This document shows positions 5,225 to 48,283 of a DNA stretch of 64,000 nucleotides, piece after piece. Each line of letters starts with the position of its first letter. The stretch's first letter is position 1. The notes beneath the pieces were generated by a model. It worked only from the letters and a program-made list of their open reading frames with translations. It ran no database searches and had not been told where the DNA came from. A program made the translations under genes and the position numbers. The stretch comes from Ornithinimicrobium sp. F0845. GTDB lineage: Bacteria; Actinomycetota; Actinomycetes; Actinomycetales; Dermatophilaceae. The stretch spans positions 357,478 through 421,477 of the forward strand of contig NZ_JALKAL010000001.1 of the NCBI RefSeq assembly GCF_023015765.1. The letters run 5' to 3'.

Positions 5225-7372
5225 TCAGCGCATGGCCCCGGACCGCAGCTCCACGGGCAGCGGCTGGTCGTGCACCACGGTCAGCCCGGAGACGGCTCGG
5301 GTCAGCACGACATACAGCCGGCGCAGACCGGTGCGCTCGTCCGGCTCGGCGGCCACGATGGCGGCGGGCTCGACGACGACGACCTGGTCGAACTCCAGGC
5401 CCTTGGCCAGCGTCGCCGGGACGAGCTGCACGCGTGGCGGCGGCTGATCCTGCGCAGCCTGCTCCGGTGCCGGATCCTCGGTGGCACGCACGCCACCCAG
5501 CACGGTGTGTTCCAGCCCGCCGGAGTCCAGGGCTCGTGCGGTGGCGCGCACCTCGCCGTCGGCGACGATGATCCCGACGGTCCCCGGCGCACCGGCCAGC
5601 GCGCCACGGGCCGCCGCGACGACCGCGGAGAGCAGCTGGCCACCGGCCGGGACCAGCTCCAGGCGCCCCCGGTTGGACCGGACGGACTCCGGCAGGGCCA
5701 GGTCGGGCGCGATGCGCGGCAGGAGACGCGCCGCATACTCCAGGACCGCGGCGGGGACGCGGAAACCGCGGGTCAGCTCCTCCAGGTGCGCTCCACTCTT
5801 GCCCAGGTGCTCCAGCGACTCGGTCCAGGAACGGGTGGCCCACGGGGTCGTGCCCTGCGCGAGGTCCCCCAGCACGGTGAGCGACCCGGTCGAGGCGCGC
5901 CGGCCGACGGCGCGCAGCTGCATGGGGGAGAGGTCCTGCGCCTCGTCCAGGATGATGTGGCCCAGGCTCGGGGTGCGCTCCAGGAAGTTGGCGATCTCAT
6001 CGAGCAGGACCGTGTCGGCCGGGCTCCAGCGGGCCGCTCCCTTGCTCCGGGGAGGCCTGTCCCACAGGAGAAGTCCCTGCTCGTCCGCGGACAGGATGTC
6101 CTCCGCGGCCGTGGCGAGGGCGTCGGCGTCCGAGAACAGGGTGTAGAGCACCGCGGCCGGGTCGAGCGCGGGCCAGATGCGGGCCGCGTAGTCCCGGACC
6201 GGCTTGCTGCGCGCCACGGTGTCCTGGACGCGGTCGTCGGGGGTGTCTCCCGCCCGCTCCATCCGGACCAGCACGGCGTGCGCGAGGCGCTGGGGGAGCA
6301 TCGCCCGGGCGGACTGGTAGGGGACCCCGCGAGCGGTGAGCTCGTCCACGATCTCCTGCACGTCATACTCCGGCACCCGCCAGCGGCGGGCCCCCCGCGG
6401 CACGACCAGCGCCTCACCGGCCCTCCCCACCCCGGACCACACCGCCCTGCGCAGCACCTGGGCCAGGCGTGCGTCGCCCTTGAGCGTGGCGACCTCGGGG
6501 GAGTCGGTGCCGCGGCTGGTGCCGGTGAGTTCCTCGACGGTCGTGTGGCCCACCTCGATCTCGCCGAGGGTGGGCAGCACCGCGCCGACGTGCTCGAGGA
6601 AGGCCCGGTTCGGCCCCACGACCAGGACGCCGGAGCGGGACAGCCGGTCGCGGAAGGAGTAGAGCAGCCACGCCGCCCGGTGCAGTCCGACCGCGGTCTT
6701 GCCGGTGCCCGGGGCGCCCTGCACGCAGATGGTCGTGGTGACGTCGGCGCGCACGATCTCGTCCTGCTCGGGCTGGATGGTGGCGACGATGTCGCGCATC
6801 GGTCCGGAGCGTGGGCGCTCGATCTCGCGCGCCAGGATCGAGCTGTGGCCGGCGTCGGGCAGGTCGCCGTCCTGCGGGGCCGCGAGGTGCTCGTCCTCGT
6901 ATGCCGTGAGCTGGCCGCGGTCCACGCCGAACCGGCGGCGCAGGGTCACCCCCATCGGTTCCCGGGGGGAGGCGCGGTAGAACGGGGTGGAGACCCCGGC
7001 CCGCCAGTCCACGACGACCGGCTCGCCGTCGGCGTCGGAGATGTGCCGGCGACCGATGTAGTGGCGCTCGACCGGTGATGACAGCCCGGCCCCGGTGTCG
7101 ATCCGGCCGAAGAAGAGGGTGCTGGACGGGTCGTCGCGCAGGGACTGGGCCCGGCGCCAGAGGGTGTAGGCGAGGTACTCACCGGCCATCTTGTCGCCGG
7201 CCTGGGCCTGGAGGCCGAGGGTGTGCTCACGCATCCGGGCCATCTCGGCCCGGGCGCTGCGCAGGTAGTCCTGCTCCCGGGCGAGCTCCGGGTCCGGTGC
7301 CGGGTGTCTGGGTGGGTCGGGTGCCGGGTCTGTGGGGCCGACGGGATCAGGAGGGTGGGCGGGCGAGGACAT
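5225..7372 (-). CDS. helR: HelR/HelD-type RNA polymerase recycling motor ATPase (UvrD-like superfamily 1)
   Basis: This 715-residue superfamily 1 ATPase has Walker A GAPGTGKT at about residues 219-226 and Walker B LDEAQD. Its N-terminus is predicted helical and carries FFGRID and IGRRHI, motifs typical of the HelD/HelR branch rather than of DNA-repair UvrD. Known HelD/HelR proteins pry stalled RNA polymerase off DNA, and HelR can also displace rifamycins. The ATG at 7372 has a GAGGTGG ribosome site seven bases upstream, inside one arm of a perfect inverted repeat. The rifamycin-associated element found before some helR genes is not visible here. The role is inferred from family; HelD-like and HelR-like subtypes are not separated with certainty. 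Confidence 0.85.
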   Translation of the reverse strand: MSSPAHPPDPVGPTDPAPDPPRHPAPDPELAREQDYLRSARAEMARMREHTLGLQAQAGDKMAGEYLAYTLWRRAQSLRDDPSSTLFFGRIDTGAGLSSPVERHYIGRRHISDADGEPVVVDWRAGVSTPFYRASPREPMGVTLRRRFGVDRGQLTAYEDEHLAAPQDGDLPDAGHSSILAREIERPRSGPMRDIVATIQPEQDEIVRADVTTTICVQGAPGTGKTAVGLHRAAWLLYSFRDRLSRSGVLVVGPNRAFLEHVGAVLPTLGEIEVGHTTVEELTGTSRGTDSPEVATLKGDARLAQVLRRAVWSGVGRAGEALVVPRGARRWRVPEYDVQEIVDELTARGVPYQSARAMLPQRLAHAVLVRMERAGDTPDDRVQDTVARSKPVRDYAARIWPALDPAAVLYTLFSDADALATAAEDILSADEQGLLLWDRPPRSKGAARWSPADTVLLDEIANFLERTPSLGHIILDEAQDLSPMQLRAVGRRASTGSLTVLGDLAQGTTPWATRSWTESLEHLGKSGAHLEELTRGFRVPAAVLEYAARLLPRIAPDLALPESVRSNRGRLELVPAGGQLLSAVVAAARGALAGAPGTVGIIVADGEVRATARALDSGGLEHTVLGGVRATEDPAPEQAAQDQPPPRVQLVPATLAKGLEFDQVVVVEPAAIVAAEPDERTGLRRLYVVLTRAVSGLTVVHDQPLPVELRSGAMR
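6899..6908. repeat. GTATGCCGTG, recurrent 10-base word (first copy; others listed)
   Basis: Exact copies on the plus strand begin at 6899, 12629, 22332, 24970, 28025, 38429, 40877 and 46615. On the minus strand they span 8499-8508, 14154-14163, 15596-15605, 20894-20903 and 26461-26470. They fall in several reading frames and in gaps. Near copies include 35654 (CTATGCCGTG) and 35193 (GTATGCCGTC). Confidence 0.8.
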
Positions 7373-7377
7373 GAGAG

Positions 7378-7437: not shown

Positions 7438-7448
7438 AGAACAGGGGT

Positions 7449-8588
7449 TTAGGAGTCGGCGCGCACATCCAGGGTGACGGTGACGTGCTGCGTCTCGCCG
7501 TCGCGGATGTAGGTCAGCTCGACCTCCGAGCCCGCGGTGCGCTGCCGCACCTGGGCGACCAGCGCCAGGGAGCCGTTGACACGCTCGCCGTCGATGTGGG
7601 TGACCACGTCCCCCTCCTTCAGGCCCGCGCCGTCGGCCGGCGAGCCGGGCTCGACCATCGTGACGCCCGCGGCGTACAGCGTGGCGCCGTCCTGGTCCGC
7701 GGTGGCGTCGCTCAGCCCGATGCCGAGGAAGGCGTGCTCGGCGGTGCCGTCCTCGATCAGCTGCCCGGCGATGGAGGACACCTCGTTGACCGGGATCGCG
7801 AAGCCGATGCCGATGTTGCCCGCCTGGCCGCCCATGGCGCTGGACAGGCTGGCGATCGAGGAGTTGATGCCGATCAGGGCCCCGCTTCCGTCCACGAGCG
7901 CGCCACCGGAGTTGCCGGGGTTGATCGCGGCGCTGGTCTGGATGGCGTTGGTGACCACCGGCTCCGCCTGTGCCATGGCGCCGGGCTGCATACCCTCAGC
8001 GCCGGCCTGCTCGGTCGTCACCGGCCGGTCCAGGGCGCTGATGATGCCGGTGGTGACCGTGCCACTCAGGCCCAGCGGGTTGCCGATCGCCATGACGGGG
8101 TCGCCCACGGCGAGCGTCTCGTCGTCACCGACGGTGATGGGGTGCAGGTCCTCGGGCGGGGAGGTGAGCGTCAGCACCGCCAGGTCGGTCGACGGGTCGG
8201 CCCCGGCGATCTCGGCGCTGTAGGACCGGCCGTCTGCGAGGGTCACCTGCACCTGCTGCGCCCCGGCCACCACGTGGGCGTTGGTGACGATGTGCCCGTC
8301 CTGGTCCCACACGACACCCGAACCGGCGCCACCCCCGGCGTTCGACTCGACGCTGATGGCCACCACGCTCGGGGAGACGTTGGCGGCGACGCCGCCCCAG
8401 TCGGTGGAGGGGGAGTATGCCGCCGGGCTGGCGTTGGCGCTCGTGGTGGCCGCCGCGGCGTCCAGGACCACAGGCTGCTCGTCCTGACTCGCCTGCACCA
8501 CGGCATACGTCCCGCCGGAGGCCAGGATCGCGGACAGGAGACCCACCGCGGTGACCTGTGTCCACATGGTCGGGTTCGTCCTGCTCAT
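7449..8588 (-). CDS. HtrA-like S1C serine protease with PDZ domain
   Basis: This 379-residue protein has an N-terminal membrane anchor or signal segment (about residues 10-32), a linker rich in alanine and serine, a trypsin-fold domain and a C-terminal PDZ domain (VEPGSPADGAGLKEGD). The catalytic triad is visible as TNAHVV (His), STDLAVL (Asp) and NPGNSGGAL (Ser). Proteins of this layout act outside the membrane in quality control or stress signalling. The ATG start has AAGGAG about 8 bases upstream. The downstream gene helR is separated by a 76-base gap containing a large inverted repeat. The substrate is unknown. Confidence 0.92.
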   Translation of the reverse strand: MSRTNPTMWTQVTAVGLLSAILASGGTYAVVQASQDEQPVVLDAAAATTSANASPAAYSPSTDWGGVAANVSPSVVAISVESNAGGGAGSGVVWDQDGHIVTNAHVVAGAQQVQVTLADGRSYSAEIAGADPSTDLAVLTLTSPPEDLHPITVGDDETLAVGDPVMAIGNPLGLSGTVTTGIISALDRPVTTEQAGAEGMQPGAMAQAEPVVTNAIQTSAAINPGNSGGALVDGSGALIGINSSIASLSSAMGGQAGNIGIGFAIPVNEVSSIAGQLIEDGTAEHAFLGIGLSDATADQDGATLYAAGVTMVEPGSPADGAGLKEGDVVTHIDGERVNGSLALVAQVRQRTAGSEVELTYIRDGETQHVTVTLDVRADS

Positions 8589-11198: not shown

Positions 11199-11224
11199 TC
11201 CGGACCCAGCCCGTTGCCGTCGGG

Positions 11225-12736
11225 TCAGGCGTGCTGCGAGGCTGGACCGGATGCGGGTGCCGCGAGCTGGACCGTGCGCGGGAGCTCGACGCGGAAGGTC
11301 GCGCCGCCGCCGGGCGTCGGCCGGTGCCGGACGGTGCCGCCGTGCCGCCCGACGATCGAGGCGACGATGGACAGGCCGAGGCCGGTGCCGCCACCCCGGC
11401 CAGCGCCCCGGGAGCGCGAGGGGTCGGCGCGGTAGAACCGCTCGAAGACGCGACTGGCTGCCTCGGGCGGAATGCCCGGACCGTGGTCCTGCACCTCGAT
11501 GACGGCGGCCGTGGGAGTCTGCCCGACCAGCACCTCGACCGACGTGTCGTCCGGAGTGTGCGACACCGCGTTGGCGACCAGGTTGGTCAGCACCTGGCGC
11601 AGCGCGAAGTCATCCCCGGGCACGACGACCGGTCCGTTGGCGGCACCGTAGCGGCGCAGCGAGATGACCCGGTCGGGAGCCCTCACCAGCGCGTCCTGCA
11701 CCACATCGTTGGCCACGACCACCAGGTCCACGTCGCCGTGCGGCCGGTGGGGCGTGGTGTCCAGCCGGGTGAGCAGCAGCAGGTCCTCCACGAGCCTGGC
11801 CATCCGGGAGGACTCGTCCTCGATGCGGCGCATCGCACCGGCCACGTCCTCCGGGTCGGTGACGCCACCGACGCGGTACAGCTCGGCATACCCCTTGACG
11901 GTGGCCAGCGGGGTCCGCAGCTCGTGCGAGGCGTCGGCGACGAACTGACGCATCCGCGCCTCGGACGCCTCCCGGACGGCGAACGACTGCTCGATCTGGG
12001 CGAGCATGGCGTTGAGGGACTGCGAGAGGGAGGCCACCTCGTCGTTGGCGTTGCGCTCCGGGATGCGGCGGGTGAGGTCCCCGGCCGCGATCGCGGCGGC
12101 GGTGTCCTCGATGCGAGTCAGCGGGCGGAAGGCGCGGCGCACCGCGAACCAGCTGATCAGGGCGACGGCCAGGAGGGTCGCCAGGCCGACCACGGCGGTC
12201 AGGATCAACAACCGGCTCACCGTGTTGGTGACCGTCCAGAGCGGCAGGGCCACCGCGACGGTGCCCTGCTCGCCGGTGATGCTGTTCTGGTAGGTCTGCA
12301 CCAGCACGCGCCACTGCGACGTCCCGTCCACGGAGTCCACCGTGAACGGCCCCGCGCCGACGCTCTGGTCACGGATCGAGGTCCAGCCGATGTCTGGCTC
12401 CTGGCCCTGCGTGCTGCTCACCGAGGTGCTCTCGATGAGCTGGCCCCGCATGGGGCCGCTGATCAGCAGGTAGTACGGGATGGGGTCGCGCGGCGTGCGC
12501 GGCTGCTGCCCGCTCACCCGGAGCCAGGCGTCCTGGGCCAGCGGCTGGCTGTAGGCCTCCAGGTCCCGGTCGGTCTTGTCGGCCAGGTAGTCACGCATCA
12601 GGGTGGCGGTCAGCACGGTGGTGATGACGTATGCCGTGAGCACCAGTGCCACGACGACCGTCACCAGACGCGCCGTCAGCGACAGGTCGTGCAGCCGCGA
12701 GACGGCGGACCGGCGCGAGTTGCCGAGCCAGCCCAT
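11225..12736 (-). CDS. Sensor histidine kinase (TrcS/MprB-like)
   Basis: This 503-residue kinase has a first membrane segment at about residues 20-45, an extracytoplasmic domain of roughly 125 residues, a second segment at about 175-200, HAMP (about 200-255), HisKA with phospho-accepting His271 in SHELRTP, and an HATPase domain with an N box (NLVANAVSHTP), DHGPGIPPE and GTGLGLSIV. It starts five bases after the response regulator stop and is co-transcribed with it. The layout matches actinobacterial kinases that sense the cell envelope; the signal is unknown. It converges on the sigma gene with a 26-base gap. Confidence 0.93.
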   Translation of the reverse strand: MGWLGNSRRSAVSRLHDLSLTARLVTVVVALVLTAYVITTVLTATLMRDYLADKTDRDLEAYSQPLAQDAWLRVSGQQPRTPRDPIPYYLLISGPMRGQLIESTSVSSTQGQEPDIGWTSIRDQSVGAGPFTVDSVDGTSQWRVLVQTYQNSITGEQGTVAVALPLWTVTNTVSRLLILTAVVGLATLLAVALISWFAVRRAFRPLTRIEDTAAAIAAGDLTRRIPERNANDEVASLSQSLNAMLAQIEQSFAVREASEARMRQFVADASHELRTPLATVKGYAELYRVGGVTDPEDVAGAMRRIEDESSRMARLVEDLLLLTRLDTTPHRPHGDVDLVVVANDVVQDALVRAPDRVISLRRYGAANGPVVVPGDDFALRQVLTNLVANAVSHTPDDTSVEVLVGQTPTAAVIEVQDHGPGIPPEAASRVFERFYRADPSRSRGAGRGGGTGLGLSIVASIVGRHGGTVRHRPTPGGGATFRVELPRTVQLAAPASGPASQHA

Positions 12737-13505: not shown

Positions 13506-14519
13506 CTAGGGGGATACCTGCGGCACGACCGGCTCCGACGCGAGGAGGTCCAGCCCGAGCTCATAGGACATCGCGCGGGCCGCCAACTGCCCACGCACGC
13601 TGTTGCCCTCGCGGTCCAGGGGCGGGGAGAACGAGCCGAGGGCGCCCTTGCCCGGGGAGACGGCCACGATCCCGCCACCGATGCCACTCTTGCCGGGGAT
13701 CCCGACCCGCATCAGCCAGTCGCCGGAGGTCTCGTAGAGCCCGGCGACCGTCATCACGACCAACGTCGCCCGGGCCACCTCCGCGTCGACCACGCGGACA
13801 CCGGTGAGCGGGTTGACCCCGCCGTCGGCCAGCGTCGCTCCCATCACGGCCAGGTCCACGGCCGTCACTTGCAGGCAGCTCTGGCGCGTGTAGAGCTCAA
13901 CGGCTGTCAGCGGGTCCTCGTCGAGCGCGCTGAGCTCGCGCAGCAGCATCGCCAGCGCCCGGTTGCGGAAGTTGGTCTCCCGCGCGCAGGCCAGCACGTC
14001 CTGGTCGAGGTCCAGCTCGTGCCCGGCGAACCGGGAGAGACCCTCCGCCAGCCCCTCCCAGCGCTCGTCCAGGCTCGTGCCGGTGAACAGGCTCGTGGTG
14101 GCGATGGCCCCGGCGTTGACCATCGGGTTGGTGCGGCCGTCGACCGTCCGCTCCACGGCATACGCGGAGTTGAAGGGCAGGCCCGTGGCATCCACCCCCA
14201 CCCGCTCGATCACGGTGTCGATGCCGACCGCCTGGGCGGCCAGGGCGAAGGCGAACGGCTTGGCGACACTCATGATCGTGAACTCGACGCGGGAGTCGCC
14301 CACCTCCTGGGTCGACCCGCTCACCCCGACCAGTCCGAGCCCGAAGTGCTCTGGGCGCGCCCGCTCCAGCGACGGGTACACCCGGGAGACCTGCCCGTCG
14401 ACGACGTGGCGGTAGCGCTCGTGGGTGGCGCGCAGGATCTCCCCGCGCGCCCGGTGCCCCGGCAGGTCGCCGGTCGAGGTGTAGCGGTGCCCGACCGCGA
14501 CCTCCTCCTGGTCGGCCAC
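13506..14519 (-). CDS. glsA: Glutaminase (serine-dependent, beta-lactamase fold)
   Basis: A 337-residue glutaminase that hydrolyses glutamine to glutamate and ammonia. The catalytic SxxK is at Ser84-Lys87 (MSVAKPF), and NAGAIATTSL, the KSGIGGGI segment and the ARAMSYELG tail match the family. Length is slightly above the usual 305-330 owing to the N-terminus; an in-frame stop lies shortly upstream, so the GTG at 14519 is the longest possible start. It begins only 15 bases after the stop of an aminopeptidase remnant and may use promoter sequence within it. Confidence 0.93.
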   Translation of the reverse strand: MADQEEVAVGHRYTSTGDLPGHRARGEILRATHERYRHVVDGQVSRVYPSLERARPEHFGLGLVGVSGSTQEVGDSRVEFTIMSVAKPFAFALAAQAVGIDTVIERVGVDATGLPFNSAYAVERTVDGRTNPMVNAGAIATTSLFTGTSLDERWEGLAEGLSRFAGHELDLDQDVLACARETNFRNRALAMLLRELSALDEDPLTAVELYTRQSCLQVTAVDLAVMGATLADGGVNPLTGVRVVDAEVARATLVVMTVAGLYETSGDWLMRVGIPGKSGIGGGIVAVSPGKGALGSFSPPLDREGNSVRGQLAARAMSYELGLDLLASEPVVPQVSP

Positions 14520-15081: not shown

Positions 15082-16740
15082 TCAGACCAGTTCGAGGGTG
15101 CCGAGGTCCTCGGCGTCGACGATGCGGTAGGCATAGCCCTGCTCGGTCAGGAACCGCTGCCGGTGGGCGGCGAACTCCGCGTCGACGGTGTCCCGGGCCA
15201 CGATCGTGTAGAAGTGCGCGGTGCGCCCGTCGCCCTTGGGTCGCAGCACGCGCCCGAGGCGCTGGGCCTCCTCCTGGCGGGAGCCGAAGGTGCCGGAGAC
15301 CTGGATGGCGACCGAGGCCTCGGGCAGGTCGATGGAGAAGTTGGCCACCTTGCTCACCACGAGCAGCTGGATCTCGCCCGTGCGGAAGGCGGCGAACAGC
15401 TTCTGCCGCTCGGCGACCGTGGTCTCGCCGGTGATCAGGGGTGCGTCCAACCGCTCCGCGAGCGTCCGCAGCTGGTCGAGGTACTGGCCGATCACCAGGG
15501 TCTGCTGGCCCCGGTGCCGCTCGACCAGCTGGTCGACGACCCTGTCCTTGGCCGGCGCGCACGAGGCGAACCGGTAGCGCTCGTCTGGCTCCGCCACGGC
15601 ATACGCCATCCGCATCGAGTCCGACAGGGTGACCCGGACCTCCACGCAGTCGGCGGGCGCGATGTAGCCCTGCGCCTCGATGTCCTTCCACGGCGCGTCG
15701 TAGCGCTTGGGCCCGATGAGGGTGAACACCTCGGACTCGCGGCCGTCCTCGCGCACCAGCGTCGCCGTGAGCCCGAGGCGGCGCCGGGCCTGTAGGTCAG
15801 CCGTCATCCGGAAGATCGGCGCCGGGAGCAGGTGCACCTCGTCGTAGACGATGAGTCCCCAGTCGCGGGCGTCCAGCAGGTCGAGGTGCTTGTAGACGCC
15901 GCCCCGCCGCGTGGTCAGCACCTGGTAGGTGGCGATGGTGACCGGGCGGATTTCCTTGCGGGAGCCGCTGTACTCCCCGATCTCGTCCTCGGTCAGGCTG
16001 GTGCGGGCCAGCAGCTCATCGCGCCACTGCCGCGCGGACACCGTGTTGGTCACCAGGATCAGGGTGGTGGTGGCGGACCTGGCCATGGCGCCGGCGCCGA
16101 CGAGCGTCTTGCCCGCCCCGCACGGGAGGACGACCACGCCGGACCCGCCGTCCCAGAAACCGTCGACGGCCTGCTGCTGGTAGGGCCGCAGCGACCAGTC
16201 GTCCTGCCGCAGGTCGATGGGGTGCTTCTCGCCGTCGACGTAGCCCGCGAGGTCCTCCGCGGGCCAGCCGACCTTGATCAGCTCCTGCTTGAGGTGACCC
16301 CGCTCGGAGGAGTGGACGACCACGGTGTCGGGGTCGAGGCGCTCACCGGTCAGCGGCTTGATCTTCTTGTGCCGCAGGATCTCCTCGAGCACCGCGCGGT
16401 CGGTGGTGCGCAGCAGCAGCCGTCCGGGCTCGGTGGAGTCGTCCTTCTCCAGCGTGAGACGACCGAACCGGTCCATCGTCTCGGCGACGTCCAGCAGCAG
16501 CGAGTTGGGCACCGGGTAGCGGCTGTGCCGCACCAGGGCGTCCACCACCTGCTCGGCGTCGTGACCGGCGGCCCGGGCGTTCCACAGACCGAGTGGGGTC
16601 ACCCGGTAGGTATGGACGTGCTCGGGGGCCCGTTCGAGCTCGGCGAAGGGCGCGACGGCGCGGCGCGCCGCCTCGGCGTCGGGGTGGTCGACCTCGAGGA
16701 GCAGGGTCTTGTCGGACTGGACGATCAGTGGGCCATTCAT
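15082..16740 (-). CDS. XPB/Ssl2-type DNA repair helicase
   Basis: A 552-residue superfamily 2 helicase of the bacterial XPB type. After an N-terminal domain of about 170 residues it has the Q-region RPYQQQAV, Walker A PCGAGKT (206-212), DEVH (VYDEVHLLP), the LTATLVRED motif with the XPB-type RED sequence, and motif VI QRLGRVLRPKG. XPB homologues unwind DNA 3' to 5' in repair; in actinobacteria the gene is often called ercc3. The ATG at 16740 gives the usual family length, although the frame stays open upstream. A TACCGT lies ten bases before the ATG. Confidence 0.93.
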   Translation of the reverse strand: MNGPLIVQSDKTLLLEVDHPDAEAARRAVAPFAELERAPEHVHTYRVTPLGLWNARAAGHDAEQVVDALVRHSRYPVPNSLLLDVAETMDRFGRLTLEKDDSTEPGRLLLRTTDRAVLEEILRHKKIKPLTGERLDPDTVVVHSSERGHLKQELIKVGWPAEDLAGYVDGEKHPIDLRQDDWSLRPYQQQAVDGFWDGGSGVVVLPCGAGKTLVGAGAMARSATTTLILVTNTVSARQWRDELLARTSLTEDEIGEYSGSRKEIRPVTIATYQVLTTRRGGVYKHLDLLDARDWGLIVYDEVHLLPAPIFRMTADLQARRRLGLTATLVREDGRESEVFTLIGPKRYDAPWKDIEAQGYIAPADCVEVRVTLSDSMRMAYAVAEPDERYRFASCAPAKDRVVDQLVERHRGQQTLVIGQYLDQLRTLAERLDAPLITGETTVAERQKLFAAFRTGEIQLLVVSKVANFSIDLPEASVAIQVSGTFGSRQEEAQRLGRVLRPKGDGRTAHFYTIVARDTVDAEFAAHRQRFLTEQGYAYRIVDAEDLGTLELV

Positions 16741-16821
16741 CGTGGGGTCAACGGTATGCCGCCCCGCCGGCATTCCGGACACCTCCCCTCCACCGTGGTC
16801 GGGTCTGCGAAGATCCTGTCC

Positions 16822-20708: not shown

Positions 20709-21377
20709 GTGACCGAAACGCGGTGGCCGCTGCGGCGTGCCGCGACACACAATGACCTGGTGCGTGATGACCTGGTGCGTGCAGAGCCGGCGCCCCCGCA
20801 GACCCTCGTCCTCCTCGAGGGTCCCAGCGACGTGGCCGCGGTGACCGCTCTCCTGCCCCGCGGCCCACGCGAGACGGACGACGGCCCCGTGCGCACGGCA
20901 TACTCCCTGGTGGACCTGGGCGGGGTGACCAATGTCGGGGCACACCTACTCAGGGCCGCCGCTGCGCGGCCCGCCCCGCGCGTGGTGGGGCTCTGTGACG
21001 CCGGGGAGTCGCGGGTCGTGCTGCGGGCGCTGCAGCGTGTCGGCCGCGAGGTGACCGAGGTGGACGACCTGCCGGCCGAGGGGTTCTTCGTGTGTGAGCG
21101 GGACCTGGAGGAGGAGCTGATCCGGGCGCTCGGGACCACGCGGTGCCTCGAGGTGCTCGCTGACCAGGGCCTGGCGGCGCGCTTCGAGGCGTTCAGCAGG
21201 CAGCGCGCCTGGGCCGGGAGGCCGCTGACCGAGCGGCTCCACCGGTTCAGCGGGATCGCCTCCGGTCGCAAGATCCTGCTCGCGGGAGCGATGGCCCGGG
21301 CCCTCGCGCCGGACCGGGTGCCGGCGCCGCTGGCCGGGCTGCTGCGACGCCTTCAGGAGGCCGGGTCACGGGCCTGA
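20709..21377 (+). CDS. Stand-alone TOPRIM-domain protein (OLD-family-like)
   Basis: A 222-residue protein with a TOPRIM-type core: VLLEGPSDVAAV supplies the glutamate, and GLCDAGE and FFVCERDLEEELI supply acidic positions expected for metal binding. It resembles the C-terminal TOPRIM part of OLD-family nucleases but lacks their ATPase half. A GTG at 20709 is chosen to clear the divergent acyltransferase gene. The next gene follows 12 bases downstream. The substrate is unknown; a nuclease or nucleotidyl transfer role is inferred from the fold only. Confidence 0.7.
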   Translation: MTETRWPLRRAATHNDLVRDDLVRAEPAPPQTLVLLEGPSDVAAVTALLPRGPRETDDGPVRTAYSLVDLGGVTNVGAHLLRAAAARPAPRVVGLCDAGESRVVLRALQRVGREVTEVDDLPAEGFFVCERDLEEELIRALGTTRCLEVLADQGLAARFEAFSRQRAWAGRPLTERLHRFSGIASGRKILLAGAMARALAPDRVPAPLAGLLRRLQEAGSRA

Positions 21378-22331: not shown

Positions 22332-22339
22332 GTATGCCG

Positions 22340-22367
22340 TGAGGAGCGTCGGCAGCGACGCGCCTCA
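22340..22367. terminator. Hairpin between convergent genes
   Basis: TGAGG (22340-22344) pairs with CCTCA (22363-22367), and inside it GCGTCG (22346-22351) pairs with CGACGC (22356-22361) around a GCAG loop. It overlaps the stop of the minus-strand gene and follows the lyase stop by eight bases. No T-run is present. Confidence 0.6.
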
Positions 22368-22881: not shown

Positions 22882-24858
22882 ATGAAGTCCGGAGTCCGCC
22901 GCGAGTTCATGAACCCGCAGGTCCGCCCGCAGGACGACCTGTTCGAACACGTCAACGGCGGATGGCTCGCCAGCACCGAGATCCCGCAGGACAAGGGGCG
23001 CTACGGCGCGTTCGACATCCTGCGCGAGAACGCCGAGGCCGACGTCCGCGCCCTGATCGAGGAGAGCGCCGCCGCGGCCGACGAGGCGGAGCCGGGCAGC
23101 GCCGAGCGCCAGGTGGGGGACCTCTACGCCTCGTTCATAAACACCGAGCGGATCGCCGAGCTCGGCACCGGGCCACTGACCGAGGACCTGCGCTCCATCG
23201 CCGCGGTGAGCGACCCCTCCGGGGTGGTCCGCGAGTCGGCCCGGCTGCAGCGCGGCGGCGTCGACCCGCTCGTCCACCTCTTCGTCACCGCCGACGCCGG
23301 CAACCCGCAGGAGTACATCGGCTACCTCCACCAGGGCGGGCTGGGGCTGCCCGACGAGGCCTACTACACCGACGACGAGCACGCCGCGGCCCGGGAGGCC
23401 TACGTCACCTACCTGGGCCGCCTGCTCTACCTGGCCGCTCCCGCACTGGCCGAGGCCGGGCTCGACCTGGGTGAGGACCCCGCGCAGCGCGTGTTCGACC
23501 TGGAGACGCGGATCGCCGCGGGCCACTGGGACCGGGTGACCGCCCGCGACGCGGTCAAGTCCTACACCCGGTGGTCCCGCGCCGAGCTCACCGAGGGCAC
23601 GCCGGGCTGGGACTGGACGGCGTATGCCGAGGGGCTGGCTCTGCCCGACGGAGCCCTCGACCACGTGGTCGCCCGGCAGCCGGACTTCCTGGCGGCCGTC
23701 GCGGAGGCGCTCCGCGACGTGCCGGTGGCCGACTGGCGCGCCTGGCTCACGGTGCGGCTGCTGGACAGCAGCGCGCCCTACCTGACCGAGGACTTCGTCG
23801 AGGCCGCCTTCGACTTCCACGGCCGCACCCTCACGGGCACCCCGGAGAACAAGGACCGCTGGCGCCGCGGGGTGGCCCTCGTGGAGGGCCTGATCGGCGA
23901 GGAGGTCGGCAAGCTCTACGTCGAGCGGCACTACCCGCCGGAGGCCGGGGAGCGGATGGCCGTGCTCATCGACAACCTGATGGCCGCCTTCCGGGCCCGC
24001 ATCTCCGAGTTGGAGTGGATGGGGGAGGAGACCCGCGCCAAGGCCCTGGAGAAGCTGGCGGCCTTCCGGCCCAAGATCGGGCACCCGTCCCGCTGGCGGG
24101 ACTACTCGGCATACTCCGTGGACGCTGGCGATCTCCTCGGCAACGTCCGTCGGGGCAGCGCCGTCGAGTTCGACTACCAGGTCGGACGGATCGGCGGCCC
24201 CATCGATCAGGAGGAGTGGATGATGACTCCTCAGACGGTCAACGCCTACTACCACCCGATGCTCAACGAGATCGTCTTCCCGGCCGCCATCCTGCAGCCG
24301 CCGTTCTTCGACGTGGAGGCCGACGACGCCGTCAACTACGGGGGGATCGGGGCGGTCATCGCCCACGAGGTCGGCCACGGCTTCGACGACCAGGGCTCCC
24401 GCTACGCCGGGGACGGCTCGCTCACCGACTGGTGGACCGAGCAGGACCGCGCCGCCTTCGACGAGCGCGCGCAGCAGCTCATCGCCCAGTTCGACGACCT
24501 GGAGTCGCGCAGCGCCCCGGGCACCAAGGTCAACGGCGGGCTCACCGTCGGGGAGAACATCGGCGACCTGTGCGGCCTGGCGGTCTCCCTGCACGCCTAC
24601 CGGTTGGCCAGCGACGGGGCGGCCCCCGAGATCGACGGATGGACCGGTGACCAGCGGTTCTTCCTCGGCTATGCCCAGGTCTGGCAGGGCAAGGCCCGGC
24701 TGGAGGAGGCCAGGCGGCTGCTCGCGATCGACCCGCACGCCCCCTCCGACCTGCGGGCCAACCTGGCGCGCAACGCCGATGCCTTCCACGAGGCGTTCGG
24801 GGTGAACGAGGGGGACGGCATGTGGCTGGCCCCGCAGGACCGCGTCCGGATCTTCTGA
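22882..24858 (+). CDS. M13-family zinc metallopeptidase (PepO/neprilysin-like)
   Basis: A 658-residue gluzincin. Zinc ligands are His495 and His499 in HEVGH, and Glu558 in GENIGD, with Glu496 catalytic; NAYYHP and the C-terminal HAPSDLRAN region bind substrate in known members. There is no signal peptide, as for bacterial PepO-type enzymes, so it may be cytoplasmic or exported by another route. AAGGAG lies eight bases before the ATG. menD follows after seven bases, so the two are probably co-transcribed though unrelated in function. Confidence 0.95.
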   Translation: MKSGVRREFMNPQVRPQDDLFEHVNGGWLASTEIPQDKGRYGAFDILRENAEADVRALIEESAAAADEAEPGSAERQVGDLYASFINTERIAELGTGPLTEDLRSIAAVSDPSGVVRESARLQRGGVDPLVHLFVTADAGNPQEYIGYLHQGGLGLPDEAYYTDDEHAAAREAYVTYLGRLLYLAAPALAEAGLDLGEDPAQRVFDLETRIAAGHWDRVTARDAVKSYTRWSRAELTEGTPGWDWTAYAEGLALPDGALDHVVARQPDFLAAVAEALRDVPVADWRAWLTVRLLDSSAPYLTEDFVEAAFDFHGRTLTGTPENKDRWRRGVALVEGLIGEEVGKLYVERHYPPEAGERMAVLIDNLMAAFRARISELEWMGEETRAKALEKLAAFRPKIGHPSRWRDYSAYSVDAGDLLGNVRRGSAVEFDYQVGRIGGPIDQEEWMMTPQTVNAYYHPMLNEIVFPAAILQPPFFDVEADDAVNYGGIGAVIAHEVGHGFDDQGSRYAGDGSLTDWWTEQDRAAFDERAQQLIAQFDDLESRSAPGTKVNGGLTVGENIGDLCGLAVSLHAYRLASDGAAPEIDGWTGDQRFFLGYAQVWQGKARLEEARRLLAIDPHAPSDLRANLARNADAFHEAFGVNEGDGMWLAPQDRVRIF

Positions 24859-34326: not shown

Positions 34327-35641
34327 GCCCGGACTCCAGGCCGAGGGCGTGCCGCATCGCCGCCAGTTTGACCTCGGTCTCGGCCAGCTCGGCCTCCGGG
34401 TCGGAGGCGGCCACGATCCCGCCGCCGGCGAACAGTCGCATCGACCGGGCGTCGGGGGCCAGCTGACCGCAGCGCAGCGCGATGCCCCAGTCCCCGTCGC
34501 CGTCGGCGTCCACCCAGCCGACGGGCCCGGCATACCGCCCGCGGTCCATCCCCTCGAGCTCGGCGATGAGGCGGGCCGCGTCCTCCGAGGGTGTCCCGCA
34601 CACGGCGGCGGAGGGGTGGAGCGCGGCGGCCAGGTCCAGCGATGTGGCGTCGTCGGCGGCCTCACCGCTGAGGTCGGTCGCCAGGTGGTAGACGTCCGGC
34701 AGCTCCAGCACGAACGGCTGCTCGGGCACCTGCAGGCTCGCGCAGTGCGGCGTCAGCGCATCGGCGACCGACCGCACCGCGAAGGCGTGCTCCTCCAGCT
34801 CCTTGGCGTCGGAGACCAGGTGCAGCCGCGGGTCGGGGCGGTGCGACTCCTCCAGCTCGGGGTGCGTCTCGGTCACCGACGGGGCGGGCGAGCGATCCCG
34901 GCGCACCGTCCCCGCGAGGACCCGGGAGCGCACCCGGCCGTCCTGCAGGCGCACGAGCATCTCCGGGGTGGCGCCGATCAGCCCGTCGACGGCGAAGGTC
35001 CAGGTGGCGGCGTAGCGCGAGGCCAGCCGCCGCAGCAGGGCCACCGTGTCGATCGGCCGGTCCGCCTCCGCGACGACGTCGCGGGCGAGCACGACCTTGG
35101 CCACCTCCCCGGCCTCGATGCGGGCGACCGCTCCGGCGATCACCGCGGGCCAGTCCTCGGCGGCCACCGCACCGGACCGCAGCCGTATGCCGTCCGTCGC
35201 GTCCGCGGACACCGAGCTGTTCCCCGTGGGCGCAGGAGCAGCGTCGCCGTCCTCGATGCTGGTCACCCACGCCCGCCCCGCGTGCTGGCCGGCGATGACG
35301 CGCGGGACGATCAGTCCGCCGCCGTCCGGCGAGTCGGGAGAGAAGGCGAAGGAGCCGAACGCGAGCAGCCCGGTGCCGGGCAACCCGACCTCGTCGACCA
35401 CCTCGGCCCCGGCGACCACGTCCCGCCACCACGCGGCGGCGAGGGCGAAGCGGTCGGGACCACCCCGCATACTCACCGGGCTGGCGGCCGCCCGGCCCCA
35501 GCCCACCAGCCCGCTGCCCTCGCGCACCCAACTGACGACCGTCGCCGGATCCACCTCCGGCGGGACGAGGTCGAACAGGTCGGGCTGCGGGGGCGCCTCG
35601 AGGGTGCGCGCGCGCAGACGGGGAAGGACGGGGACGGTCAC
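34307..35641 (-). CDS. menF: Isochorismate synthase (MenF/EntC type)
   Basis: A 444-residue chorismate-binding enzyme. The catalytic region has EVAKVVLARD, GATPEMLVRL, SRVLAGTVRRD, a lysine-containing SDAKELEEH, HPSAAVCGTP and YAGPVGWVDADGDGDW. It converts chorismate to isochorismate for menaquinone; MenD uses the product. The GTG start has no ribosome site but has TAGGCT eight bases upstream (35650-35655), consistent with a leaderless message. It is divergent from menG with a 43-base gap. Confidence 0.93.
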   Translation of the reverse strand: MTVPVLPRLRARTLEAPPQPDLFDLVPPEVDPATVVSWVREGSGLVGWGRAAASPVSMRGGPDRFALAAAWWRDVVAGAEVVDEVGLPGTGLLAFGSFAFSPDSPDGGGLIVPRVIAGQHAGRAWVTSIEDGDAAPAPTGNSSVSADATDGIRLRSGAVAAEDWPAVIAGAVARIEAGEVAKVVLARDVVAEADRPIDTVALLRRLASRYAATWTFAVDGLIGATPEMLVRLQDGRVRSRVLAGTVRRDRSPAPSVTETHPELEESHRPDPRLHLVSDAKELEEHAFAVRSVADALTPHCASLQVPEQPFVLELPDVYHLATDLSGEAADDATSLDLAAALHPSAAVCGTPSEDAARLIAELEGMDRGRYAGPVGWVDADGDGDWGIALRCGQLAPDARSMRLFAGGGIVAASDPEAELAETEVKLAAMRHALGLESGHAPTKK

Positions 35642-38258: not shown

Positions 38259-38882
38259 ATGACACCTCTGTCCTGGCGTCGTCGCGCACCCGACGTGCCG
38301 GTCCGCGACCTTGAGCTCGTGGCCGTCGACCTGGAGACCACCGGGCTTGACCCCTCCTCGCACGAGATCCTCAGCATCGGGGTGGTCCCGGTTCGGCGCG
38401 GGGTCATCGAGCTCGGCGGCGCGCGGCAGTATGCCGTGCGGCCATCCGGCCCGACCGGGGTCGGGTCGAGCGCGACGGTCCACGGCATCACCGACGACGA
38501 GGCGGCCGCCGCCGCACCCCTCGCCGAGATCCTGCCGCAGCTGCTGACCGACCTGGAGGGCCGGGTTCTGCTGGCGCACCACGCCACGATCGAGACCGGG
38601 TTCCTCGCCGCGGCCTGCCGCGCCACCTCCCATGAGGTCCCGGCTCTGACGGTCGTCGACACCGTCCGGCTGCAGCGCCGGGTGCTGCAGCGCGGGCGCA
38701 CCCGCGGCCACGTCGCCGACGAGGAGCTGTCGCTGGCTGCGGCCCGCCGGCACTTCGGGCTGCCCCGCTACCGCTCGCACGACGCGCTGACCGACGCCCT
38801 CGCCTGCGCCGAGCTCTATCTGGCACAGGTGGCGGTGCTCGCCGGTGACCACGACCTCACCCTCCGCGCACTCATCCGGTGA
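38259..38882 (+). CDS. DnaQ-like 3'-5' exonuclease
   Basis: A 207-residue DEDDh exonuclease: Exo I VDLETTGL, Exo II region HHATIETGFL and Exo III HDALTDALACAELYL. It lacks the DnaE-binding tail of replicative epsilon subunits. The ATG at 38259 follows the DUF294 gene by five bases, so the two proteins are almost certainly made together. The substrate (nucleotide, RNA or DNA end) is unknown. Confidence 0.9.
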   Translation: MTPLSWRRRAPDVPVRDLELVAVDLETTGLDPSSHEILSIGVVPVRRGVIELGGARQYAVRPSGPTGVGSSATVHGITDDEAAAAAPLAEILPQLLTDLEGRVLLAHHATIETGFLAAACRATSHEVPALTVVDTVRLQRRVLQRGRTRGHVADEELSLAAARRHFGLPRYRSHDALTDALACAELYLAQVAVLAGDHDLTLRALIR

Positions 38883-40861: not shown

Positions 40862-40956
40862 GGACAAGCTTCTGCAGTATGCCGTGCGCCGGGTTGCGCA
40901 CGAACGATGCACGTTGTGAAGGGACGGTGTGAGACGTGGGACTTGAGGACAAGCTT
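40852..40956. repeat. Direct repeat linking the nuoA end and nuoB start
   Basis: GTGGGACTGAGGACAAGCTT (40852-40871) recurs at 40936-40956 with one inserted T. The first copy encodes the nuoA C-terminus and stop; the second contains the nuoB GTG start in another frame. The 64 bases between them have no gene and contain one GTATGCCGTG. Confidence 0.7.
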
Positions 40957-41490: not shown

Positions 41491-42235
41491 TGGCAGCGAA
41501 CGAGGACACCTCCAACATCCCGCAGAGCCCGACCGACGACCTGCCGGCGGCCCAGACCGCGGACGTGGCGCAGGCCGCGGGGGAGCCCGTGGTCGTGGCG
41601 CGTAAGCAGGGCATGTTCGGCCCGGCCGACAGCGGTGACACCTCCGGCTACGGCGGTCTGCAGCGCGAGGTCCTCTTCCCCGGGGCCGCCGCGCGGCCCT
41701 ACGGCGGCTGGTTCGACGAGGTCGCCGACGTGCTGGAGGAGGCGACGGGCTCGGCATACTCCGAGGGGGTCACGGTCGTCATCGACCGCGGCGAGATGAC
41801 GCTCCAGGTGGCGCGCGAGCACCTGCTGACCATCGCGCAGGCGCTGCGCGACGAGCCCGCCCTGCGCTTCGAGCTGTGCCTGGGCGTCAACGGCACGCAC
41901 TACCCGCAGATGACCGGTGCCGAGCTGCACGCGGTCAACAACTTCCTGTCGATCACCCACGGCGGCCGCCGGATCCGGGTCGAGACCTCCTGCCCCGAGG
42001 ACGACCCCCGCGTCCCCTCGCTCGTCGGGATCTACCCGGCCAACGACTGGCACGAGCGCGAGACCTGGGACATGTTCGGCATCATCTTCGACGGTCACCC
42101 GGCACTGACCCGGATCCTGATGCCGGACGACTGGCCGGGACACCCGCAGCGCAAGGACTATCCGCTGGGCGGCATCCCGGTGGAGTACAAGGGCGCCACG
42201 ATCCCGGCGCCGGACACGCGCAGGAGCTACAACTG

Positions 42236-42236: not shown

Positions 42237-43566
<1,330 letters not shown>

Positions 43567-43570
<4 letters not shown>

Positions 43571-44391: not shown

Positions 44392-45701
44392 GCACCCAAC
44401 TGACTCCGATCCTGACCAAGTTCTGGGACCACCCCACGAGCTGGACCCTGGAGACCTACGAGGCCAACGGCGGCTACCAGGGCCTGCGCAAGGCGCTGCA
44501 GACCGAGCAGGCCGACCTGGTCCAGATGGCCAAGGACTCCGGGCTCCGGGGCCGTGGTGGTGCCGGGTTCCCGACCGGGCTGAAGTGGAGCTTCCTGCCC
44601 CCGCCGGACGGTGGCCCCCGCTATCTCGTGGTGAACGCCGACGAGGCCGAGCCGGGCACGTGCAAGGACATTCCGCTGCTGTTGGCCGCGCCGCAGTTCC
44701 TCATCGAGGGCATGGTCATCACCTCCTTCGCGATCGGCTGCCACCACGCCTTCATCTATCTGCGCGGCGAGGTCGCACACGTGCACCGACGGGTCCAGCG
44801 GGCCATCGCCGAGGCGTATGCCGCGGGCTACCTGGGCAAGGACATCCTCGGCACCGGCTTCGACCTGGACATCACCCTGCACTCCGGCGCCGGCGCCTAC
44901 ATCTGCGGCGAGGAGACGGCGCTGCTGGACTCCCTGGAGGGCCGCCGCGGGCAGCCCCGGCTGAAGCCGCCGTTCCCGGCGGTCGCTGGTCTGTACGCCC
45001 GGCCCACCGTGGTCAACAACGTCGAGTCGATCGCCTCGATCGCACCGATCGCGGCCAACGGAGCCGACTGGTTCGCCGACATGGGCACCGAGAAGTCCCA
45101 GGGCTTCGGCATCTTCAGCCTGTCCGGGCACGTCACCAGGCCGGGGCAGTATGAGGCGCCGCTGGGCATCACTCTGCGCGAGCTTCTCGAGATGGCCGGG
45201 GGCATCCGCAACGGCCGGAAGCTGAAGTTCTGGACCCCCGGCGGGTCCTCGACCCCGCTCTTCACCGACCAGCACCTGGATGTGCCGCTGGACTTCGAGT
45301 CCGTGGCCGCCGAGGGCTCGATGCTCGGCACGCGCGCCCTGCAGATCTTCGACGAGACGGTCTCGGTCGTGCGCGCGGTCTCGCGGTGGACGGACTTCTA
45401 CGCCCACGAGTCCTGCGGCAAGTGCACGCCCTGTCGCGAGGGCACCTTCTGGCTCAAGCAGATCATGCACCGACTCGAGGCGGGCACCGGCAGCCAGGAC
45501 GACATCGACAAGCTCGTGGACATCTGTGACAACATCCTGGGTCGCGCGTTCTGCGCCCTGGGAGACGGTGCGACCAGCCCGATCACCTCGGCGGTGCAGT
45601 ACTTCCGCGAGGAGTTCGAGGCCGGCATGCACACCCCGGCGTCCGAGCTGTTCCCGCCGGGGCGCTCGACGTTGTTCGCGAAGGAGACGCAGCCAGCATG
45701 A
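44388..45701 (+). CDS. nuoF: NADH-quinone oxidoreductase subunit F
   Basis: A 437-residue subunit that binds NADH, FMN and 4Fe-4S cluster N3. It shows [16 protein letters not shown] and [12 protein letters not shown] for nucleotide binding, [14 protein letters not shown], and [11 protein letters not shown] plus FCALGDGA for the cluster. The GTG start overlaps the nuoE stop (GTGA). Confidence 0.97.
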
Positions 45702-48283
45702 CCGTCAACACCTCACCCGCATCCGGGGGCAACGCCGTCTCCGACGGCGGCAACGCCGAGGTCCCGGCCGAGCCCGACGTGCCCATGGTCTCGCTGACCA
45801 TCGACGGGGTCGACGTCAGCGTGCCGGAGGGCACCCTGGTGATCCGCGCCGCCGAGCAGATCGGCGTCCAGATCCCCCGGTTCTGCGACCACCCGCTGCT
45901 GGACCCGGTCGGCGCCTGCCGCCAGTGCATGGTCGAGGTGGCCACGCCGGACCGCGAGGGCAACGTCCGGCCGATGCCCAAGCCGCAGACCTCCTGCACC
46001 CTGACGGTCAGCGCGGGCATGCAGGTCAAGACCCAGCACACCTCCCCGGTCGCTGACAAGGCGCAGCACGGGCAGATGGAGTTCCTGCTGATCAACCACC
46101 CGCTGGACTGCCCGGTCTGCGACAAGGGCGGCGAGTGTCCGCTGCAGAACCAGGCGATGTCCAACGGCCGGCCCACCTCGCGCTTCGAGGACATCAAGCG
46201 GACCTACCCCAAGCCGATCAACATCTCCTCCCAGGTGCTGCTCGACCGGGAGCGCTGCATCCTGTGCGCCCGGTGCACGCGCTTCTCCGACCAGATCGCC
46301 GGTGACCCGTTCATCGCGCTGATCGAGCGGGGTGCCCTGCAGCAGGTCGGCATCTACGAGGAGAAGCCGTTCGAGTCCTACTTCTCCGGCAACACCGTCC
46401 AGATCTGCCCCGTCGGCGCCCTGACCGGCGCGGCCTACCGGTTCCGCTCCCGGCCGTTCGACCTCGTCTCGACGCCGAGCGTCTGTGAGCACTGCGCCTC
46501 GGGGTGCGCGATCCGCACCGACCACCGTCGTGGCGTGGTCCTGCGCCGGATGGCGCTGGACGACCCGGAGGTCAACGAGGAGTGGAACTGCGACAAGGGT
46601 CGCTGGGCCTTCCCGTATGCCGTGCAGCCGGACCGCCTGCGCGATCCGGTGGTGCGTGACCAGGACGGCAACTACCAGGTCGCCACCTGGGGCGAGGCGT
46701 TCGCCGCCGCAGCCGCTGGTCTGGCCGCTGCCCGGGCCGATGGTGGCGCCGGTGTGCTGGTCGGGGGCCGGGCCTCCGTGGAGGACGCCTACGCCTACAG
46801 CAAGTTCGCCCGGGTCGCGCTCGGCACCAACGACATCGACTTCCGGGCCCGCCCGTACTCCGAGGAGGAGACCACCTTCCTGGCCTCGCAGGTCGTCCGC
46901 CGCTCGGACGTCACCTACTCCGACATCGAGGCCGCGGACACCGTGCTGCTGGTCGGCTTCGAGCCGGAGGAGGAGAGCCCGCTGGTCTTCCTCAGACTGC
47001 GCAAGGCCTTCCTGTCCAACTCCACGAGCGTCTACGGCCTGGCGCCCTTCGCCACCCCCGGTCTCACCAAGGCCGGTGGGACGCTGATCCCCGCCGCCCC
47101 GGGCACGGAGGCGGAGATCCTGCGTGCGCTCGCCGACGGCCACGCGTCCGCCGACACCGGGGCCGCCTCCGCCGACACCGATGCCACCTCCGCCGCAGCT
47201 GACCCGGTGGCGGCTGCCGCAGCCGGGTTGAGCGAGTCCTCGGTCATCCTCGTGGGCGAGCGCCTGGGCCTGGTCCCCGGCGGGCTGTCCGCCGCAGCGG
47301 CTCTGGCCGAGGCCACCGGGGCCGGTCTGGCCTGGGTGCCGCGCCGCGCCGGTGAGCGCGGTGCGGTCGAGGTCGGGGCGTTGCCGGGCCTGCTGCCCGG
47401 TGGCCGCCCGGTGGCCGACGAGAGCGCTCGCGCCGCCGTGTCGGACCTCTGGGGCACGGGCCTGCCGGAGGCCGGCGGCCGCAGCACCGACGAGATCCTG
47501 GCCGCCGCCGCAGACGGCGAGCTGTCCGCCCTGGTGGTCGGTGGCGTCGACCCCGACGACACGGCCGACCCGGCCCTGGCCCGCGCCGCGCTGGCCAGCG
47601 CCTTCGTCGTCTCCCTCGAGTTCCGGGAGTCGGCCGTCCACGAGTACGCCGACGTCATACTCCCGGTCGCCCCGCAACAGGAGAAGGCCGGTGCCTATGC
47701 CAACTGGGAGGGCCGACTGCGTCCCTTCGAGCAGGCCCTGGAGTCCAACGCGATGAGCGATCACGTCGTGCTGGATCTGCTGGCCGGCGAGATGGGTGTC
47801 CACCTGCAGGCCCGTGACCTCACCGCCCTCCGCACCGAGCTGACGGCCCTGGGGTCGTGGGACGGGGTCACCGACCTGCCGCGCGTCGCCGCGGCCGAGC
47901 CGGCCCGGCCCGCGCAGGGCGAGGCGGTCCTGGCGACCTGGCACACCTTGCTCGACAACGGGTCGATGCAGGACGGCGAGCCGTTCCTGGCGGGCACCGC
48001 GCGCAAGGCGGTGGCGCGCATCTCGGCGGCCACGGCCGCAGCGGTCGGTGCCGCCGCCGACGGGCTGCTGACGGTGAGCACCGACCGCGGCAGCATCACC
48101 CTCCCTGTCGACCTCACCGAGATGCCCGACCACGTCGTCTGGGTCCCGACCAACTCGCCGGGGTCCGCGGTGCGGGCCACCCTCGGCGCCGAGGCGGGTG
48201 CGGTCGTGCGGATTGCGGCAGCTGACGAGCTCCGGGGCGTCGACAGCACCGGAGGCCACGCCCTCACAGGAGGTCAGGCATGA
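45698..48283 (+). CDS. nuoG: NADH-quinone oxidoreductase subunit G
   Basis: An 861-residue subunit. The N-terminus has the 2Fe-2S N1b ligands ([17 protein letters not shown]), the HxxxCxxC-type N5 site ([17 protein letters not shown]) and N4 cysteines ([10 protein letters not shown] and VQICPVGA). It also keeps all ligands of the off-path cluster N7: CEHCASGC, then a cysteine 27 residues on (EEWNCDKG). The C-terminal molybdopterin-like domain includes a 40-residue alanine-rich insert (about 480-520). ATGA overlap with nuoF. Confidence 0.96.

Follow-up and report, generated by a model that had tools for sequence, protein, structure and literature searches.

A dispersed DNA word in Ornithinimicrobium and related genera with features of a DNA-uptake sequence

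The window analysed here, a stretch of 64,000 nucleotides (64 kb) from Ornithinimicrobium sp. F0845, lies on contig C1 of a 4.2 Mb source genome (G000 hereafter) and contains many copies of a 10-base word, GTATGCCGTG, and of its 8-base core, GTATGCCG. An earlier note on this DNA had reported 13 exact copies of the 10-mer, 8 on the plus and 5 on the minus strand between 6899 and 46624, together with about 27 copies of the core; all 13 were found at the positions given there, and the core occurs 27 times. According to our own, approximate gene calls, 12 of these 27 copies are in sense and 11 in antisense orientation within called genes, and 4 fall in no called gene, including those at 22332 and 40877, in agreement with the previous claim that both orientations and gaps are represented. 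The copies are listed below, "10-mer" standing for an exact GTATGCCGTG and "core" for GTATGCCG.

457..464, plus: core, sense, gene ending at 5122(+)
6899..6908, plus: 10-mer, antisense, HelD/HelR-like gene 5225-7234(-)
8415..8422, plus: core, antisense, HtrA-like protease gene 7449-8588(-)
8499..8508, minus: 10-mer, sense, HtrA-like protease gene 7449-8588(-)
11884..11891, minus: core, sense, histidine kinase gene 11225-12736(-)
12629..12638, plus: 10-mer, antisense, histidine kinase gene 11225-12736(-)
14154..14163, minus: 10-mer, sense, glutaminase gene 13506-14519(-)
15595..15604, minus: 10-mer, sense, XPB/ERCC3-like helicase gene 15082-16740(-)
16754..16761, plus: core, no called gene
20894..20903, minus: 10-mer, antisense, called gene 20775-21377(+) without Pfam match
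22332..22341, plus: 10-mer, no called gene
23622..23629, plus: core, sense, M13 peptidase gene
24107..24114, minus: core, antisense, M13 peptidase gene
24970..24979, plus: 10-mer, sense, thiamine pyrophosphate (TPP)-enzyme gene 24866-26629(+)
26461..26470, minus: 10-mer, antisense, TPP-enzyme gene 24866-26629(+)
28025..28034, plus: 10-mer, antisense, Helicase_C_3 gene 27120-29342(-)
34528..34535, minus: core, sense, chorismate-binding enzyme gene
35185..35192, plus: core, antisense, chorismate-binding enzyme gene
38429..38438, plus: 10-mer, sense, called gene 38295-38882(+)
40877..40886, plus: 10-mer, no called gene
41752..41759, minus: core, antisense, called gene 41490-42236(+)
42880..42887, minus: core, antisense, called gene 42236-43570(+)
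44816..44823, plus: core, sense, nuoF-like gene (Complex1_51K)
46615..46624, plus: 10-mer, sense, nuoG-like gene 45698-48283(+)
54166..54173, plus: core, sense, Proton_antipo_M gene 53600-55132(+)
55836..55843, minus: core, antisense, Proton_antipo_M gene 55132-56661(+)
60701..60708, plus: core, no called gene

The excess over chance proposed for both words was borne out. In 100 dinucleotide shuffles of the window, the 10-mer (13 observed) reached a mean of 0.03 copies and a maximum of 1, and the core (27 observed) a mean of 1.00 and a maximum of 5. When window 10-mers with at least 5 copies were ranked against a third-order Markov expectation, GTATGCCGTG came first (13 observed, 0.08 expected). 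The whole genome contains 542 copies, 277 forward and 265 reverse, as compared to 13 (4 and 9) of a reversed-word control. An 823 kb portion of G000 contains 103 copies, where Markov models of order 3, 4 and 5 predict 1.07, 5.02 and 13.1, the last two orders already including parts of GTATGCCGTG; counts close to such expectations, which the earlier note had named as a refutation, were thus not obtained. Expressed as density in G000, GTATGCCG occurs 0.41 and GTATGNCG 0.67 times per kb, the exact 10-mer alone accounting for 0.13.

The word tolerates certain changes. In 461 kb of G000, with 63 exact GTATGCCGTG, single changes were found at position 6 (C to T in 20 copies, to A in 15, to G in 6), position 9 (T to A in 31, to G in 25, to C in 16) and position 10 (G to C in 17), each of the remaining ones being present in 0 to 7 copies. 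Position 6 is strict in a relative, G104, where 6 of 107 GTATGNCG sites lack the C. An A precedes GTATGCCG at 60% of the 339 sites in G000 and at 3% of those in G104. Counting 18 bases on from the first G, a T is unusually frequent in G000 (76 of 339 sites), in G104 (38%) and most of all in genus g28 (66% of 41), whose form of the word is long, CCGTATGCCGCTGRGCTCGnTnCC; in G000 the rise comes chiefly from sites that are not in the main sense frame (23 of 67 non-coding sites have the T, versus 20 of 143 in that frame). Such a pattern suggests one recognition mode plus a second contact.

The word is maintained as DNA, by selection at the DNA level, because in the context G-TAY-GCCG of G000 tyrosine is encoded by TAT in 143 of 157 cases (TAC in 14), whereas with no GC following TAT makes up 514 of 3978 (13%; TAC 3464). 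The earlier remark that TAT appears mainly before GCC was therefore right, and the effect is strong. In antisense frames of the same genome, ATA accounts for 34 of 115 CGGC-ATH-C contexts against 52 of 8619, and GCA for 57 of 128 CG-GCN-TAC contexts against 1489 of 29453; like codon trends were seen in relatives (TAT in 24 of 39 cases in G104 and 38 of 45 in G013). The supposition that the word sits in different codon frames stood for the genome, where all six frame combinations occur, but the window is less varied, the first G of GTATGCCG being at codon position 3 in 19 and at position 1 in 4 of its 23 coding copies. Outside called genes, 67 copies were counted where 50 were expected in G000, and 36 where 26 were expected in G104.

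These data bear on whether the word could be a by-product of protein coding or of mutation, arising for instance from avoidance of a neighbouring word or from a context-dependent mutation bias. It is true that in 143 of the 272 coding copies the sense frame encodes Tyr-Ala, and that GTACGCCG, one base off the core, is scarce in G000 (20 copies versus 38.7 by composition), where it is rarer than in pooled word-less relatives (47 in 240 kb). However, at third order GTACGCCG shows no depletion (20 versus 10.6), and its deficit is outweighed by the surplus of GTATGCCG (200 versus 16.0 by composition); avoidance of GTACGCCG is not a sufficient cause. Rare codons (ATA and GCA) in the antisense frames, the copies outside genes, the enrichment outside the sense frame and the existence of a form of about 20 bases in g28 also speak against a by-product, an origin that we consider extremely improbable.

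No strand bias was found. On 681 kb of contig C1 there are 145 plus and 140 minus copies, both strands being represented in each of 14 blocks (8 and 14 in the most uneven), and 200-kb stretches of two relatives gave 45/40 and 43/58; these are local counts made with origin and terminus not located, and the whole-genome forward and reverse totals, also similar, are insensitive to arm polarity. A polar guide of recombination or segregation along a chromosome arm, be it a Chi-like site for an enzyme of the RecBCD, AddAB or AdnAB type or a site for FtsK similar to KOPS (FtsK-orienting polar sequences), would likewise be short, asymmetric, dense and of changing position. KOPS are polarised from origin to terminus, and the local strand counts here are without polarity. 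Chi is also over-represented, but in E. coli it lies nearly always on the leading strand (passages of PMC8022716). The absence of skew therefore contradicts Chi-like and segregation sites, and a wholly different word in sister genera (see below) would be unexpected for a conserved enzyme, so that a role of this type appears very unlikely. Lack of orientation bias was an argument against replication-linked roles for known uptake sequences too (PMC1939737).

Copies on C1 are spaced a little more regularly than chance would place them (variance/mean 0.78 to 0.95), yet 3 empty 10-kb bins were found versus 1.0 expected, and one 13.6 kb stretch is without GTATGCCG. Even spacing, together with the presence of copies on both strands and in all sampled regions, could be expected of binding sites for a nucleoid-organising or cell-cycle protein needing many sites without polarity. 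Nevertheless, the loss or replacement of the whole set of sites between and within genera, presented below, is hard to fit with a housekeeping role, and we regard such a protein as an unlikely reader. Density rises with GC content, the GC-poorest fifth having 0.30 copies per kb and the GC-richest 0.50; by our own estimate, composition alone would not give this rise, and late arrival of the word in acquired DNA may be its cause.

The survey covered 186 genomes of the family in 53 genera and an outgroup of 229 genomes from 19 other families of the order, a genus being counted as carrying the word when at least one genome had at least 50 copies and three times the control. Within its own genus, 30 of 31 genomes contain 55 to 573 copies of GTATGCCGTG and the remaining one, G135, contains 4. 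By our tally 29 of the 53 genera carry it, with g23, g36 and g58 borderline or with high control. No enrichment was found in the 229 outgroup genomes, the highest count being 24 in a genome with 11 control matches; within the order, the enriched word is thus confined to one family. Families beyond the order were sampled as single loci only, and Mycobacterium loci gave none above the print threshold for the 8-mer or the 10-mer.

Genus names rest on named loci found by a NuoG search from which records of the source genome itself may be missing. The nearest named records were Ornithinimicrobium tianjinense, Ornithinimicrobium sp. CNJ-824 and a metagenome-assembled genome (MAG) labelled Acidobacteria (each 73%, best segment), followed by an uncultured Serinicoccus (71%). 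Named loci rich in the 8-mer or 10-mer belong to Ornithinimicrobium tianjinense, Serinicoccus, Humibacillus, Knoellia, Ornithinibacter, Terrabacter, an Intrasporangium MAG, a Micrococcales MAG and Flexivirga (8-mer only), and those from Mobilicoccus, Phycicoccus avicenniae, Ornithinimicrobium CNJ-824 and two Janibacter were not rich; as these loci span just 5 to 23 kb, a low count in one of them is weak evidence. The positions of the word change between species: in orthologous genes, only 4 of 62 sites in nine word-bearing relatives (G013, G104, L009, L011, L015, L017, L021, L025 and L051, seven of which span one same region; mean protein identity 0.47 to 0.73) stand where G000 has one as well, and five word-poor genomes had zero sites in orthologs.

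Sister genera use other words. CGAAGGGGG is present 797 to 1860 times per genome in all 16 genomes of g37 and 1317 to 1939 times in the 3 genomes of g46, and none of the other 167 genomes exceeds 80 copies; g37 appears to be Janibacter-like, since both named Janibacter loci bear CGAAGGGGG (7 and 9 copies in 22 kb). GGATGCCGK reaches 2152 and 2176 copies in g19, 1360 to 3198 in g25 (3198 in the 3.7 Mb of G061) and 3100 in g61, with at most 629 elsewhere, a high background. The long form GTATGCCGCTGRG amounts to 836 and 923 copies in g28, 407 and 172 in g29, 422 in g30 and 104 in g36, as compared to at most 24 elsewhere and at most 4 for the reversed control. Genus g25 harbours two words, with 82 to 290 copies of GTATGCCGTG, and its two genomes richest in GGATGCCGK, one of them 83% complete, have the least GTATGCCGTG, as a change of dialect would give. 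All these alternative words occur on both strands, in genes and between them; 27 of 41 copies of the long form in g28 are non-coding, as are 34 of 127 copies of the g37/g46 word, in genomes where non-coding DNA is 8%. With all words pooled, a known word can be assigned to 35 of the 53 genera (own tally). ATGCCGT, part of the word, is shared with a Neisseria uptake form, an overlap that the earlier note had taken as a possible coincidence and that indeed looks like one, given that other members of this family have GGATGCCG or the unrelated CGAAGGGGG as their word.

Family-wide words and the replacement of one by another would also be explained if the word were the site of a DNA methyltransferase or of a self-marking defence, modified copies telling self from foreign DNA in the cell or at uptake. 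Against this, restriction sites are usually without enrichment, and the word is non-palindromic and tolerant of changes at several positions. Although uptake in Campylobacter jejuni depends on methylated DNA (PMC8468864), we think it improbable that methylation accounts for the word.

A de novo search, made on 20 to 116 kb per genome and liable to miss weak words, revealed in our judgement no clear word in g12, g13, g15, g16, g17, g21, g26, g39, g42, g45, g48, g56 or g63 (20 to 76 kb per genome) nor in 60 kb each of G135 and G035. CCGTACGGCG in G111, CCGGTCGAG in G046 and GTCGGTGA in G049 were inspected and not accepted as words of this kind; the first of them, in a g43 genome with nearly no GTATGCCGTG, has 25 copies versus 1.8 in 116 kb (order 2), some of them palindromic (L115-L117, L177, L223-L224). 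GTACGCCG is raised in the g45 genomes G117 (39 versus 6.3 in 56 kb) and G116 (35 versus 7.1 in 76 kb; order 2; loci L208-L209, L180, L124-L126 and L181) and was not counted as a dialect, other GTAC words being equally raised in G117. Within g56, G163 and G168 stand out with 561 and 623 copies of GGATGCCGK, the ten further genomes reaching no more than 417, and may be using this word weakly or at an early stage. In G066, G067 and G069 the long form GTATGCCGCTGRG presents several close opposite pairs, with starts 17 to 37 bases apart.

Several other repeats were noted. The highest z-score at Markov orders 4 and 5 on the 823 kb of G000 was not that of GTATGCCGTG but of another word, TAGTGGTTTT. 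This second repeated word, TAGTGGTTTT/AAAACCACTA, has 16 copies there, 12 of which form pairs exactly 32 bases apart in separate places, possibly a candidate operator of a regulator:

C1: 491448/491480, 576389/576421, 260224/260256, 566120/566152
C2: 125524/125556, 90338/90370

In the window, tandem repeats are located at 58009-58122 (15 bases, 7.6 copies) and 59330-59476 (18 bases, 8.3 copies), before and inside the called gene 58173-60551. GCCGGTCGAG forms a cluster of short spacing outside called genes in L225 (G046, g20; positions 85-305), and CTACTTGTTT and ATAGTTAGAG, with 13 and 7 copies in 60 kb of L124-L126 (G116), are probably a local repeat array. The palindrome AAGTACTT was among the top words in L014, L016, L021, L043, L060 and L075, where a count of 4 means 2 sites each, as both strands are counted. 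In viral contigs, 89 stretches had the pattern GTATGCCGCTGRGCT, with one match in each of the 80 listed, a result close to chance to which we give little weight.

Taken together, these results indicate that GTATGCCGTG is probably the most frequent exact variant of a recognition word that tolerates changes and has GTATGCCG as its core, and that the word probably owes its dispersal through the genome to DNA uptake. A protein of the natural transformation machinery would bind the word, so that DNA of the own kind is preferred; incoming DNA bearing it would enter and recombine more often, and this drive would pile up copies on either strand, in genes as far as the encoded protein permits and also between them. 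Sister genera would have adopted words of their own: a dialect that differs by one base, a long form and an unrelated word. The reader would be an uptake receptor, for which a minor pilin of a Tad/Flp-type pilus or a ComEA-like protein may be guessed. Many copies placed anywhere and in either orientation, and a word exchangeable between genera, fit an uptake receptor with transformational drive; among the options of the earlier note (uptake, Chi-like or chromosome-organising site, methylation), uptake is best supported, and the Chi-like and segregation roles did not survive the lack of skew.

The genes for uptake are widespread: ComEC was found in 180 of the 186 family genomes and T2SSF-domain genes in 183; the T2SSF domain is common to Tad, type II and type IV systems. 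The type IVa pilus protein PilM was matched in 7 of 186 (weakly in G000) and failed as a marker separating word-bearing genomes. In another actinobacterium, Micrococcus luteus, Flp pili serve DNA uptake (PMC4322843 and PMC6370729).

A number of observations weigh against the uptake explanation. ComEC and T2SSF fail to separate genomes with and without the word; being also present in word-less genera, they show opportunity, not cause, and do not thereby identify the reader. In the comEC neighbourhood of 21 genomes, 11 with and 10 without GTATGCCGTG (one of the latter, G091, bearing CGAAGGGGG instead), no gene family tracks the word and no receptor candidate emerged, three small families being present in 3, 2 and 2 of the 11 and in 0 of the 10. 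Moreover, comEC is disrupted, in separated pieces, in the word-rich G015 and G141; 18 of the 53 genera have no known word (own tally); copies outside called genes in G013 were 15 versus 27 expected, with gene calls covering just 68%; close inverted pairs in G000 were 2 versus 4.2 expected; and a limited literature search gave, among the matches listed, no transformation data for any family member.

Close inverted pairs, a trait of certain uptake sequences, numbered 5 versus 1.5 expected in G104 and 3 versus 1.1 in G013; a terminator role was rejected, as G000 lacks an excess of them. As regards comEC, the gene was also inspected in word-poor genomes. In G135 (4 copies) the match stops about 155 bases before the contig end, which may be an assembly gap, in G111 (1 copy) matches in two frames meet inside the gene, and in G035 (3 copies) there is one long match. 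With irregularities on both sides and the word-rich G015 and G141 against it, a broken comEC is no more than a possible cause of word loss. In G141 some 40 kb separate the two comEC matches (C46:68443 and 108976) on a single contig, an arrangement that insertion of an element in the gene could have produced.

On balance, we are inclined to think that a Gram-positive family of Actinomycetota, with Ornithinimicrobium, Serinicoccus, Knoellia, Terrabacter, Humibacillus and Janibacter among its named relatives, evolved its own uptake self-recognition words independently, at least four of them, with switches between genera and one to an unrelated word. To our knowledge, such words have so far been known from two Gram-negative families. 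If true, this would be the third family with uptake words and the first Gram-positive one, in hosts mostly without the type IVa pilus gene pilM, and it would suggest that Gram-positive bacteria have a DNA receptor with sequence specificity. From a third, unrelated case that comprises several words in one family, one could learn how words originate, how a receptor and hundreds of copies change jointly, and whether genera with different words exchange DNA less. Should the reader be a different one, a family-wide dispersed word exchanged between genera would still need explaining. Among the matches listed in the literature search, no title or start of abstract reported an uptake sequence or an over-represented word from Actinobacteria or Gram-positives, and none of the listed papers containing the exact GTATGCCGTG had a title on a genomic repeat.

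As regards known systems, HIP1 of cyanobacteria is a highly repeated, dispersed, palindromic octamer, whereas GTATGCCGTG is not a palindrome. Chi sites share with it an over-represented word of about eight bases and differ in polarity, absent here, and in the several words per family found here. A core density of 0.4 to 0.9 per kb, the lack of orientation bias and the dialects resemble the uptake sequences of Neisseriaceae and Pasteurellaceae, unlike the polar Chi and KOPS. The DNA uptake sequences of Neisseriaceae, with eight dialects, likewise differ by few bases within one family (passages of PMC12616744), but CGAAGGGGG in the present family is wholly different. The Neisseriaceae receptor is ComP. 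Pasteurellaceae uptake signal sequences (USS) are also dispersed, short, asymmetric words without orientation bias, genic and intergenic, and come in two types, Hin-USS and Apl-USS, inside one family, as several words do here (passages of PMC1626085 and PMC12616744). In contrast, the sequence here is unrelated, the hosts are high-GC Gram-positives with PilM in 7 of 186, and the uptake preference is inferred. When set against the features published for uptake sequences (passages of PMC1626085), the word matches them on density, orientation and sharing within a family, and less clearly on spacing, non-coding preference and inverted pairs.

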